Assembly: GCF_000504205.1 (NCBI RefSeq)
Contig: NZ_AZAJ01000001.1
Span: 2,640,879-2,704,878, forward strand
DNA: 64,000 nucleotides
Direction of reading: 5' to 3'
Source of the DNA: Methanolobus tindarius DSM 2278
GTDB lineage: Archaea > Halobacteriota > Methanosarcinia > Methanosarcinales > Methanosarcinaceae
Part shown: positions 25,382 to 29,562 of the stretch, piece by piece
Layout: the number at the start of each line of letters is the position of its first letter
Position numbering within the stretch: position 1 is the stretch's first letter
Position numbers and translations under genes: made by a program
The notes under the pieces: generated by a model
What the model was told of the DNA's origin: nothing
What the model saw: only the letters and a program-made list of their open reading frames with translations
Database searches by the model: none

Positions 25382-27697
25382 ATGTCTATAGTCGTATTCA
25401 CGGAAAAGAACAAAGCAGCTTCCCAGATAGCAAGTATTCTCAGCGGAGGGCACTTTAACCGGGCTTCGGTGGAAAGTATTCCTGTATATGACTTCAAGAT
25501 GAACGGCAAAGAATGGAGGATAATGGGACTTGCCGGTCACATCATGGGTTATGATTTTCCTGAGCAGTTTAACAACTGGCGTGAATGCGATCCGGCTGTT
25601 CTTCTGGACACTCCTCCTGTAAAAAACGTAACTAAAAAACCATATGCTGCTGCAATATCACTTCTTGCAAGCGGGGCTGAAGAAGTTGTCCTTGCATGCG
25701 ACTTTGACAGGGAAGGGGAGAATATTGGTTTTGAAGCAAAAGAGATTGCTGAAAGAGTGGCTTCCCTGCCGGTTAAAAGAGCACGCTTTTCATCACTTTC
25801 TTCCAGTGAAATCAAAAAAGCATTTTCAAATCTTGTTGAGCCGGATTACAATATGGCAATGTCCGCAGAAGCCCGTCAGATTCTAGATCTTAAAATGGGT
25901 GCGGCTTTTACCCGCTTTATGACATTGTCCGTAAGGGAGAAAGCCCGGACAAAAGGTGTTATTTCCATTGGCCCGTGCCAGACACCTACCTGTGGATTTG
26001 TCTATGAAAGGGAGAAGCTCATAAAGAACTTTAAACCAAAAGACTTCTGGAAAATAGAGGCAATTTTCAATTCTAACGGTTCAGATTTTACCGGTGTTCA
26101 CAGGGCCGGAAACATTCATGAAAAAGAAAAAGCAGATGAGATTTTCGCTCGCATAAAAGATTGCAAGACTGGTCTTGTTGACAAGAAAAGTGTAAAGGAA
26201 GCTCGCACCAATCCTCCTTATCCGTTGAATACAACTGAGTTCCTGAAACGCTCTTCTAAATTCCTGGGTGTGAGTCCGGAGGAGGCACTTGAAACCGCAG
26301 AACAGCTTTATCTTTCCGGTTTTACCAGTTATCCCAGGACTGAGACCAATAAGTATGCAGATGATTTTGATTTCAAATCAAAACTGGTGGCTTTTTCATC
26401 AGGAATTTATCAGAAATATGCCCTGGAAGTAATCTCTGCAGGAGAGATTAGCTGCAGGAATGGCACAAAGGACGGACACGACCACCCTCCTATCCATCCT
26501 ATCAAGGCCGCTTCAAAAGATGATGTCGAAAGAAGTGTCAGAATGCCCAATGCATGGAAGGTTTATGACCTGATAGTGAGGCATTTTCTTGCAAACCTGA
26601 TGCAGCCTGCCATTTTTGAGAAAACAAGAATGGAAATACTTGTTGGCGGGGAAATTTTTGATGTAAAAGGTTCAATTCTTAAAAGTGCAGGTTGGCTTGC
26701 TGTTTATCCATTTGAAACTAAAAATGACAAACTTCTTCCATTCATCGAGGAAAAAGATGAGGTTGACGTAAAGAAGCTAAAAAATACAAAATCCGAGACA
26801 ACTCCTCCAAAACGCCTGACTGAGGCTGAACTTCTGACTCTGATGGACAAGCATGGTATCGGTACCAAGGCCACAGCTCCAAGTCATATTGAAACCAATA
26901 AGAAAAGAGGATATTTTGAAACAAAAGGTAAAACAATAGCCATTCTGGATACTGGCTTTACCCTGATGGATACTCTGGATGCTACGGTTCCTATTCTGGT
27001 ACAGCCTGAGATTCGGGCACGTATTGAATCTCTTATCCAGGATGTTGAAGATGGCAAAAAATCTCTTGAAAGTGCCCTTGAAGAAGGGACTCTGCTGATC
27101 AAAAAAATGTATTCCCAGCTAACATCGAGCAAGGAAGCCATTGCTGCCAGAATGGCAGGTACCATTGTTGATGAACAGGTTGCAACCGATAAGAAAAACT
27201 TTGTTGGAACCTGTCCTGAATGTGGAAGGATGCTGCACATGATCAAGACTGACAAGGGACGCTTTGTAGGTTGTACTGGATATCCTGAATGCAAGAATAC
27301 TTATCCTCTGCCAAAGGCAGGTGCACTTACTGTTCTGCGCTCACAGCAATGTGAAAAAGGTGGTGTTGCGGTAATGAAAGTGGGTAACAAGTATAACTGG
27401 GCAGTGGGGATTGGTCCATGTTTTACCTGCGATCTGGAAAAGAAATGTTTCCCTCCTGAAATTGTAGGTCCGTGTCCGGCATGCGATGGTTCGATGTTCC
27501 TGATAACCACAAAAGATTCCCGATTCCTTGCTTGTACCAACAGATGCGGGCACACGCAATCTGTGCCTAAATCAGGTAGACTTACTATTCTTGACAGGCT
27601 ATGTGAGCATTGTGGATGGCATATACTCCGTGTAAAAGAGCAAAAACAGGATGCTAAGGAGTTTTGTGGTAACAGGAAATGTCCAGGTAAAAGGTAG
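25382..27697 (+). CDS. topA: DNA topoisomerase I (type IA)
   Basis: 771 residues. Toprim domain at 1-150 with the acidic DFDREGE motif, then the central domains with nucleophile Tyr317 in TSYPRTETNKY, and GTKATAPSHI in domain IV. The C-terminal about 170 residues hold three to four Cys4-type zinc ribbons (CPECG...CTGYPEC; CPACDGS...CTNRCG; CEHCG...CGNRKCPG). Type IA enzymes relax negative supercoils by a transient 5'-phosphotyrosine break. ATG 25382 starts exactly at the Toprim strand (MSIVVFTEK). Monocistronic, with a candidate small RNA downstream. Confidence 0.93.
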   Translation: MSIVVFTEKNKAASQIASILSGGHFNRASVESIPVYDFKMNGKEWRIMGLAGHIMGYDFPEQFNNWRECDPAVLLDTPPVKNVTKKPYAAAISLLASGAEEVVLACDFDREGENIGFEAKEIAERVASLPVKRARFSSLSSSEIKKAFSNLVEPDYNMAMSAEARQILDLKMGAAFTRFMTLSVREKARTKGVISIGPCQTPTCGFVYEREKLIKNFKPKDFWKIEAIFNSNGSDFTGVHRAGNIHEKEKADEIFARIKDCKTGLVDKKSVKEARTNPPYPLNTTEFLKRSSKFLGVSPEEALETAEQLYLSGFTSYPRTETNKYADDFDFKSKLVAFSSGIYQKYALEVISAGEISCRNGTKDGHDHPPIHPIKAASKDDVERSVRMPNAWKVYDLIVRHFLANLMQPAIFEKTRMEILVGGEIFDVKGSILKSAGWLAVYPFETKNDKLLPFIEEKDEVDVKKLKNTKSETTPPKRLTEAELLTLMDKHGIGTKATAPSHIETNKKRGYFETKGKTIAILDTGFTLMDTLDATVPILVQPEIRARIESLIQDVEDGKKSLESALEEGTLLIKKMYSQLTSSKEAIAARMAGTIVDEQVATDKKNFVGTCPECGRMLHMIKTDKGRFVGCTGYPECKNTYPLPKAGALTVLRSQQCEKGGVAVMKVGNKYNWAVGIGPCFTCDLEKKCFPPEIVGPCPACDGSMFLITTKDSRFLACTNRCGHTQSVPKSGRLTILDRLCEHCGWHILRVKEQKQDAKEFCGNRKCPGKR

Positions 27698-27732
27698 TCT
27701 TTAATGATTAATCAATCAAATTTGAGTTCTTG

Positions 27733-27756
27733 TTAAATCAGTTTTTCTTGATTTAA
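27733..27756 (+). terminator. Possible topA terminator hairpin
   Basis: TTAAATCA (27733-27740) and TGATTTAA (27749-27756) form a perfect 8-bp stem with a T-rich loop GTTTTTCT. There is no T-run after the stem, but the loop itself has five T residues. It lies 35 bp past the topA stop. Confidence 0.35.
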
Positions 27757-27775
27757 TGCCAAATTTGAAAAAGCC

Positions 27776-27784
27776 TTATATATG
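27776..27784 (+). promoter_or_regulatory. TATA box of candidate small RNA
   Basis: TTATATATG lies about 25 bp upstream of GGACTAGAGACG, where the long closing stem of the predicted RNA begins. No coding region follows on this strand. Confidence 0.55.
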
Positions 27785-27801
27785 ATAAAATCCCTTTTAA
27801 G

Positions 27802-27926
27802 GACTAGAGACGAATTGTAGACCTATTTCCTGATCATGTCTACTAAAAAATGGGTCAAGCCGATCTACTACCTCCAATATACCTCCAATTTATCACAATT
27901 CGTCTCTGCCTCCAACATTTTTTCTT
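27802..27926 (+). ncRNA. Candidate small RNA with 13-bp closing stem and two ACCTCC loops
   Basis: AGAGACGAATTGT (27806-27818) is the exact reverse complement of ACAATTCGTCTCT (27895-27907), a 13-bp perfect closing stem. Inside, TAGAC/GTCTA (27818-27822, 27838-27842) forms a second hairpin, and the rest is single-stranded and contains CTACTACCTCC (27865-27875) and ACCTCC (27881-27886). A TATA box precedes it at the right distance, and TTTTTTCTTATTTT (27917-27930) follows the stem as a terminator tail. This fits a free-standing about 125-nt RNA. Possible translational regulator by pairing with Shine-Dalgarno sites; not experimentally known to me. Confidence 0.6.
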
Positions 27927-27951
27927 ATTTTCTGATGGGTAGAATATCCAG

Positions 27952-28473
27952 TTAAATTTTGTTTCCGTATTTTTCACTGAAAACTATGTCTTCAAGTTCT
28001 TTTCGTGATGGGCTTTTGCCATTATCTGCGGGTTTGCCTATTGCAAGTACTGCCATAAGCTCCAGAGAAGCAGGACAGTTGAGAATCAAGTTAACTTTAT
28101 CTGACTGGTTTAGTATCTCACCCAGCCATACTGCACCCAGTCCAAGGTCACAGCAGGCAAGCAGCATGTTCTGAATGGCTGCACCGATGGCCTGTATGTC
28201 TTTTGTTTTGTTGTACATTGTTTCGGTGTCAAGGTATACTGCTATTAACAAGGGTGCATCCTGAACTATTTGAGAATAATGCGTGCAGCCTGCGATTTCT
28301 TCCATGGTTTCTTTATCTTTAATAACTATGAATTTCCATGGCTGGTTGTTAAGGCCGGATGGTGCCCATCTTGCTGTCTCCAGTATTATCATGATTTTTT
28401 CATCGCTTATTGATTCGTCTGTGTATTTTCTGATACTTCTTCTTGAAAGGATTGTGTCAATTACTTCTGGCAC
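27952..28473 (-). CDS. Nitroreductase-family FMN oxidoreductase
   Basis: 173 residues. The N-terminal SRRSIRKYTDE and ARWAPSGLNNQPWKFIVI motifs are the FMN-binding signature of the nitroreductase superfamily; GAVWLGEIL and LAIGKPAD occur near the C-terminus. Uses NAD(P)H or F420H2-type electrons to reduce small substrates; the real substrate is unknown. Last gene of the leftward stretch after ilvC but separated from it by a strong terminator, so probably transcribed on its own. ATG at 28473 behind GGAGGTATAG. Confidence 0.82.
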   Translation of the reverse strand: MPEVIDTILSRRSIRKYTDESISDEKIMIILETARWAPSGLNNQPWKFIVIKDKETMEEIAGCTHYSQIVQDAPLLIAVYLDTETMYNKTKDIQAIGAAIQNMLLACCDLGLGAVWLGEILNQSDKVNLILNCPASLELMAVLAIGKPADNGKSPSRKELEDIVFSEKYGNKI

Positions 28474-28540: not shown

Positions 28541-28558
28541 GTAGACCAATTGGTCTAC
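28541..28558 (-). terminator. Terminator palindrome overlapping the ilvC stop codon
   Basis: GTAGACCAATTGGTCTAC is a perfect 18-bp palindrome that contains the ilvC TAG (28557-28555). On the minus strand it is followed by ACAACCTTTTTTTATT. This is the end of the branched-chain amino-acid operon. Confidence 0.75.
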
Positions 28559-29562
28559 TTTTCGTTAAGCTCACTGTTAAGCCATGGCATCTTAGCTCTT
28601 ATTTCTTTACCAATGACTTCCAGTGGGTGTTCTCTGTCCTGTCTCTCCATTGCGGTGAGTACCGGTCTGTTTGCCTTGCCTTCAAGTACGAACTCACGGG
28701 CAAATTCTCCGTTCTGGATCCTGTCAAGAGCTTCATACATAGCTTCTCTTGAGAGCTCGTTGATGACCTTTGGACCTACTGTCATTCCACCGTATTCTGC
28801 GGTGTTAGATACAGAGTACCACATCTTGTCAAGACCACCCTCGTGGATAAGGTCGACAATGAGCTTAAGCTCGTGGCATGTCTCGAAGTATGCCATCTCT
28901 GGCTGGTAACCTGCTTCAACAAGTACTTCGAAGGAAGTCTTGATGAGTGATGCAACACCACCACAAAGGTCTACCTGCTCACCAAAGAGGTCAGTCTCGG
29001 TTTCCTCGCGGAAGGATGTCTTGTAGACTCCTGCACGGGTACATCCGACACCTTTTGCGTGTGCAAGTGCCATTTCCATTGCCTTACCGGTTGCGTCCTG
29101 ATAGACTGCTACAAGACCTGGAACACCAGCTCCATCTACGTAGGTTCTTCTTACAAGGTGTCCCGGGCTCTTTGGAGCTACCATATAGACATCGATGTCT
29201 TTCTGTGGAATTATCTGGTTGTAGTGGATGTTGAATCCGTGTGAGAATACTATTGCGTTACCTGCTTCAAGTCCTGGCTCGATCTCGTTGTAGTATACCT
29301 GTGACTGTACTTCATCAGGGAGGAGAATCTGGATGACATCTGCCATCTTTGCTGCATCTGCAACTGTCATGACCTTAAGGCCATCTTCTTCTGCCTGCTT
29401 CCAGCGTCTGCTTCCTTCTCTGAGGCCTACTGTTACGTCAAGTCCTGAGTCATGAAGGTTCTGTGCCTGTGCATGTCCCTGGCTTCCGTAACCCATTACT
29501 GCGATCTTTTTACCTTTAAGCAAGTTAAGGTCTGCATCGTTATCATAATACATTTGTGCCAT
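28555..29562 (-). CDS. ilvC: Ketol-acid reductoisomerase
   Basis: 335 residues, class I length. N-terminal Rossmann domain with [17 protein letters not shown] for NADPH, followed by [10 protein letters not shown] and [11 protein letters not shown], and the C-terminal knotted domain with [10 protein letters not shown] and the Mg2+-binding acidic residues (also [15 protein letters not shown]). Converts acetolactate or acetohydroxybutyrate to the dihydroxy acid in valine/leucine/isoleucine synthesis. 62 bp after ilvN in the same direction; ATG 29562 has GAGGAAC upstream. Confidence 0.96.

Follow-up and report, generated by a model that had tools for sequence, protein, structure and literature searches.

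A real, conserved, non-coding RNA gene almost certainly lies on the plus strand between topA and the convergent nitroreductase–ilvC pair, from position 27803 to about 27926 of the window, as the whole 64-kb stretch of DNA analysed here is called (Table 1). What the sequences show directly is its conservation, strand, structure, conserved promoter sequence and exposed motifs; the gene is presumably transcribed. An earlier note on this DNA had read the region as a free-standing archaeal transcript, and this reading gained support, since the promoter, the stem, the unpaired ACCUCC and the U-run are all conserved, the DNA past the U-run is not, and the locus is kept in several genera. The gene is present in a single copy in this genome, where its own locus scored 136 and 130 bits with two successive covariance models (R1 and R2, respectively), and matches at the same locus include those of M. 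vulcani, M. bombayensis, M. profundi and M. psychrotolerans.

Table 1. Positions in the window of the small RNA (sRNA) gene, its elements and its neighbours
Feature	Coordinates	Strand	Remarks
topA	25382-27697	+	upstream neighbour of the sRNA
Upstream DNA palindrome, TTAAATCA-N8-TGATTTAA	27733-27756	.	probably binds a regulator; alternatively a 3' hairpin of topA
TATA box, TTATATAT	27776-27783	+	conserved in all aligned Methanolobus loci
sRNA gene, predicted transcript of ~120 nt	27803-27926 (3' end approximate)	+	covariance models R1/R2; predicted ends
P1 closing stem, 5' strand, AGAGACGAATTGT	27806-27818	+	pairs with 27895-27907
P2 inner hairpin, 5' strand, GACCTATTT	27820-27828	+	covariation
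P2 inner hairpin, 3' strand, AAATGGGTC	27848-27856	+	covariation
ACCUCC motif 1, main conserved anti-Shine-Dalgarno site	27870-27875	+	mean CCUCC unpaired probability 0.94; in nearly all homologues
ACCUCC motif 2, clade-specific	27881-27886	+	unpaired 0.98; lost in several Methanolobus (L009, L011, L012, L013)
P1 closing stem, 3' strand, ACAATTCGTCTCT	27895-27907	+	pairs with 27806-27818
GCCUCC motif 3, after the stem and before the U-run	27908-27913	+	unpaired 1.00; CCTCC there in most Methanolobus and g21 homologues
T-run, probable terminator	27918-27923	+	conserved in the Methanolobus alignment
Nitroreductase gene	27952-28473	-	Pfam PF00881; convergent with the sRNA
ilvC	28555-29562	-	next after the nitroreductase gene

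The secondary structure of the RNA is, judging from sequence comparison, under selection. The perfect 13-bp closing stem (P1) that had been pointed out was confirmed, its two strands matching exactly, and it proved to be the sole perfect inverted repeat of at least 13 bp that the window contains when the gap is limited to 110; the same search in ten Markov-resampled windows gave 0, 0, 0, 0, 0, 0, 0, 1, 0 and 0 such repeats. The minimum free energy of the fold was -24.7 kcal/mol, against -13.7 +/- 3.0 for shuffled sequences (z -3.6), and for positions 27803-27926 the z value was -4.3 on the plus strand and only -2.15 on the minus strand. An inner TAGAC/GTCTA hairpin, also proposed, had to be abandoned: its letters are present, but the hairpin is not conserved, and the calculated folds contain in its place GACCTATTT/AAATGGGTC (P2), with which it cannot coexist and which is the conserved inner hairpin.

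Compensatory changes across relatives, suggested earlier as a way of checking the stem, were found in abundance. In a set of 24 sequences, 13 of the 20 pairs, and 57 cells, had changed on both sides, counts that are biased upward because the alignment (A2) was fitted to the structure of R1; 96.5% of the cells were paired and none of 500 shuffles scored as high. The stricter set of close relatives displayed two-sided changes in four pairs, a result equalled by 0/500 shuffles. Two-sided changes affected 7 of the 12 modelled pairs of P1 and 6 of the 8 of P2 (98.8% of P2 cells being paired), and sliding the register in the 24-sequence set lowered the pairing to 36-49%. The inner half of P1 has been rewritten wholesale, from AAUUGU/ACAAUU to AAGAGA/UCUCUU or AAGAUA/UAUCUU, P2 varies from GACCUAUUU/AAAUGGGUC to UGCUUGAA/UUCAGGCA, and the syntenic copies, when folded one by one, likewise form the closing stem. 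Each of the two helices repeatedly contains U-G and G-U pairs; because these would be mismatches on the other strand, they identify the plus strand as the functional one.

The claim that the region holds no coding frame required some qualification. A frame of 30 codons opens at the ATG at 27850 (MGQADLLPPIYLQ...), and its first dozen residues can be read in most close relatives; however, it has no ribosome site, its start is buried in P2, the frame is shifted in one relative (L043), and the start is absent from the distant homologues examined, which keep the RNA fold. A small protein encoded here is, therefore, hardly credible.

The predicted ends of the gene were also as anticipated. The TATA box, which the earlier note had placed at the right distance, lies about 19-22 nt ahead of the predicted start near 27802-27806, in agreement with the TATA-to-start spacing of 19-22 nt reported for a Methanolobus (PMC5378194). 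The T-run tail was equally confirmed, and conservation in the Methanolobus alignment ends right after it, where the downstream intergenic DNA diverges. The RNA begins about 105 bp past the stop of topA, and its end falls about 26 bp short of the nitroreductase stop, distances that would also suit a 3' UTR element belonging to topA or to the nitroreductase transcript that runs towards it, with no separate gene. However, the strand is wrong for nitroreductase, the RNA has its own conserved TATA box at the right distance, another gene intervenes between topA and the RNA in a member of genus g24 (L068), and two tandem, diverged copies stand beside nitroreductase–ilvC in one genome of that genus (L055, genome G184; G184:C32:83141-83266 and 83618-83744). 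The 3' UTR explanation is consequently very improbable, and the own TATA box, the intervening gene and the tandem copies led us to consider the sRNA an independent gene.

Upstream of the TATA box, the palindrome is probably a regulator site, although this assignment stays putative. In the Methanolobus loci aligned first (n=14), TAAATCAGTTTT-CTTGATTTA is nearly invariant, and the element TAAATCAGTTTTNCTTGATTTA, some 20 bp further upstream than the TATA box, hardly varies among the aligned loci of Methanolobus; the R15-like clade has it in degenerate form, and it can still be recognised in genus g21. The palindrome has a single exact copy in the whole genome. It is able to fold as an RNA hairpin, but no T-run stands behind it, and for this reason a regulator site would be preferred over a topA terminator. 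A different arrangement was observed in g24, g22 and g19 (L068, L069, L074, L076 and L152, L074 being presumably Methanosalsum zhilinae), where TTCGT-(ATAGAG or ATAAAG)-ACGAA just upstream of the RNA makes a short but perfect palindrome that spans the likely start site; it might serve as an operator, or else form an alternative hairpin in competition with P1.

The distribution of the gene was established stepwise. A BLAST search over 40 genomes gave matches in 15 of them, among which were the window's own and G027, whose weak DNA matches (L015/L016) correspond to the complement of a gene start and were discarded as non-homologous. Covariance model R1, built from 14 sequences, reached more Methanolobus genomes and another genus, and R2 reached further still. 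The sRNA was found at the topA/nitroreductase–ilvC locus in 26 of the 27 Methanolobus genomes (23 of the 27 matching R2 at E <=0.05, and G003, G006 and G011 yielding syntenic copies with laxer settings), including L075, which we take to be Methanolobus psychrophilus R15; in the 27th (G014) the contig breaks off within nitroreductase. Strongly diverged homologues were recovered in five other genera of the family (g12, g19, g21, g22 and g24), adjoining nitroreductase–ilvC; in many cases topA flanks the RNA on its opposite side or is separated from it by one gene. Synteny, inspected for all matches except those of G023 and G146, provides an independent check on those of the covariance models, and weak matches devoid of it (L078, L079, L081, L082 and L085) were taken as chance. 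No such RNA was found at the locus in the sampled members of g13, g14, g15, g16, g17, g20 and g23 (the last of which we assume to be Methanosarcina), nor was there any match in the plasmid collection.

Several peculiarities emerged from this survey. A tRNA-Arg(ccg) occupies the place of the sRNA beside nitroreductase in some g23 and g14 loci (L141, L142, L146 and L149). Upstream of nitroreductase in G180 (L151) only the 3' half of the RNA is left (ACCTCC, CTCTTCGTCTC), adjoining a GC-rich inverted-repeat sequence that resembles an insertion. Finally, a non-syntenic possible paralogue (L049 1501-1604, that is, G184:C76:7909-8012; R2 E 5.8e-8) displays a closing stem (GCGAACGGG/CCCGTTCGC), a TATA box, a T-run and an ACC-rich loop.

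Both of the exposed ACCTCC segments previously described are present and unpaired, but the second is not conserved across the genus, and a third CCTCC, within GCCTCC at 27908-27913, had been overlooked. At least one CCUCC occurs in nearly every homologue, and two or three in many species, when composition predicts about 0.1-0.3 per molecule; their unpaired probability is 0.66-1.00 across homologues and 0.94-1.00 in the window's RNA. The loop between P2 and the 3' strand of the stem drifts in length and sequence, with CCUCC (usually ACCUCC) nearly always kept; the motif is weakened in two or three homologues (ACCTTC in L046, and only the tail CCTCC in L077 and L084). The 16S genes of the genome end in GGCTGGATCACCTCCT, and the exposed ACCUCC is identical to this 3'-end sequence, from which it follows that the sRNA most likely pairs with Shine-Dalgarno sites.

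On this basis, we regard as reasonably probable a trans-acting sRNA that masks the Shine-Dalgarno sites of selected mRNAs, target pairing and repression being inferred. Its own TATA promoter would drive transcription of an RNA of about 120 nt, possibly controlled by a regulator that sits on the palindrome located 45-70 bp before the start. Closed by the 13-bp stem, the molecule would, together with the inner hairpin, keep a loop of about 35 nt open, with ACCUCC on display and a further CCUCC exposed in the 3' tail, and these would pair with the Shine-Dalgarno sites of selected mRNAs, blocking ribosome entry.

As to the selectivity of such pairing, TAC(T/C)ACCTCCAAT is almost invariant within most Methanolobus, and only the UACCUCC core is kept across genera, so that outside one clade the pairing would be short and generic. 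The drifting flanks of this bare core, together with the multiple CCUCC copies, would agree with a global translation brake or 16S mimic, occupying Shine-Dalgarno sequences generally or titrating whatever factor reads the 3' end of 16S. The near-invariance of the longer Methanolobus stretch suggests specific partners instead, and a very high abundance would be needed from one RNA gene per genome, so that this alternative appears unlikely. Slightly less likely still is a bolder version of it, in which an ancient archaeal RNA copies the message-reading tail of the ribosome in a locked loop and acts as a general brake on Shine-Dalgarno translation, switched by a dedicated regulator, and not as an antisense to a few mRNAs. 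Action through a bound protein was considered as well: CGAA/UUCG in the middle of P1 hardly changes, in contrast to the rewritten remainder of the stem, and the GACGAA/UUCGUC stem with the C-rich loop could make a protein site, the likeness to 16S being incidental. Such a site would have no obvious need for the exact letters of the 16S tail unpaired at two separate places, and we judge this possibility improbable.

A search for targets of the proposed masking sRNA gave 23 TTGGAGGT-ATG sites, against 8 for a reversed control. Extended complementarity to ATCTACTACCTCCAAT, with 12 matches against 42 for the reversed pattern, provided no convincing targets. Two of the TTGGAGGT-ATG genes are, as we take them, mttB-like and mttP-like (trimethylamine use), and their ribosome sites are complementary to the sRNA over 11-13 nt, that of the mttP-like gene (AAATTGGAGGTAT) being a candidate with long complementarity. 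The latter, the sole target candidate followed up, is conserved, but across 24 genomes it showed no co-variation with the sRNA flank. Since any strong Shine-Dalgarno sequence matches and the mttP-like sites do not follow the changes in the sRNA, both were treated as generic matches. A separate observation concerns L099 (G000:C1:1891275-1891292, minus strand), an ORF of 61 codons. Its leader TTGGAGGTAGTA shows perfect complementarity across 12 nt with the sRNA's conserved UACUACCUCCAA, and this was the longest start-site match seen with the conserved motif.

To our knowledge, targets are known for just a few archaeal sRNAs, and few have structures backed by covariation across several genera. 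The RNA described here occupies a single locus, gives a strong covariance model and carries a clear motif that lends itself to testing. It is thus a good subject for the study of translation control by sRNAs in methanogens, and for asking if this part of the Methanosarcinaceae inherited anti-Shine-Dalgarno regulation from its ancestors.

In terms of known RNAs, the sRNA is a new family, not in Rfam, of a kind that is already known; Rfam 15 gave no gathering match in the window and no match up to E 1 for 27730-27960. Within the same genus, cold-induced sRNAs of M. psychrophilus R15 carry a conserved box, the 'cold box', upstream of the promoter (PMC5378194). The upstream element of the sRNA described here being single in this genome, it would not be a box common to nine sRNAs, and its reading as a shared cold box was discarded, given that the remaining near-matches to CAGTTTTNCTTGATTTA in the genome have no TATA box with a similar RNA behind them. 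Unpaired C-rich sites complementary to Shine-Dalgarno sequences are also found in bacterial RNAs of the Listeria LhrC and staphylococcal RsaE type, in which unpaired UCCC or CU-rich sites, several and redundant in LhrC, bind these sequences (PMC4132741). No homology is claimed with these bacterial RNAs, and in LhrC the sites are placed in hairpin loops and a linker, not in one loop closed by a long end-to-end stem.

The closest parallels are the M. mazei sRNAs invoked by the earlier note, and this likeness stands as an analogy, as no descent from sRNA41, sRNA154 or sRNA162 was found as far as could be tested: the g23 genomes searched held no syntenic R2 homologue, and one weak match (E 0.03) had no synteny. 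Masking of ribosome binding sites by archaeal sRNAs has been reported from experiments for these three (PMC3510493, PMC5867862). The primary transcript of sRNA162 has 191 nt and three stem-loops; the RNA lies beside MM2441/MM2442, and the homologues reported for it are confined to M. acetivorans and M. barkeri (PMC3510493). It shares with the window's RNA its intergenic position and the family of the host, and its unpaired linker masks a ribosome binding site, but the RNA described here is distinct from it, with one closing stem and an inner hairpin at the topA/nitroreductase–ilvC locus. In turn, sRNA41 and sRNA154 act in trans, and their anti-RBS sequences repress translation (ACDS mRNAs; glnA2; PMC5867862), so that, compared by description, they display the same trans-acting anti-RBS mode proposed for the RNA of the window.
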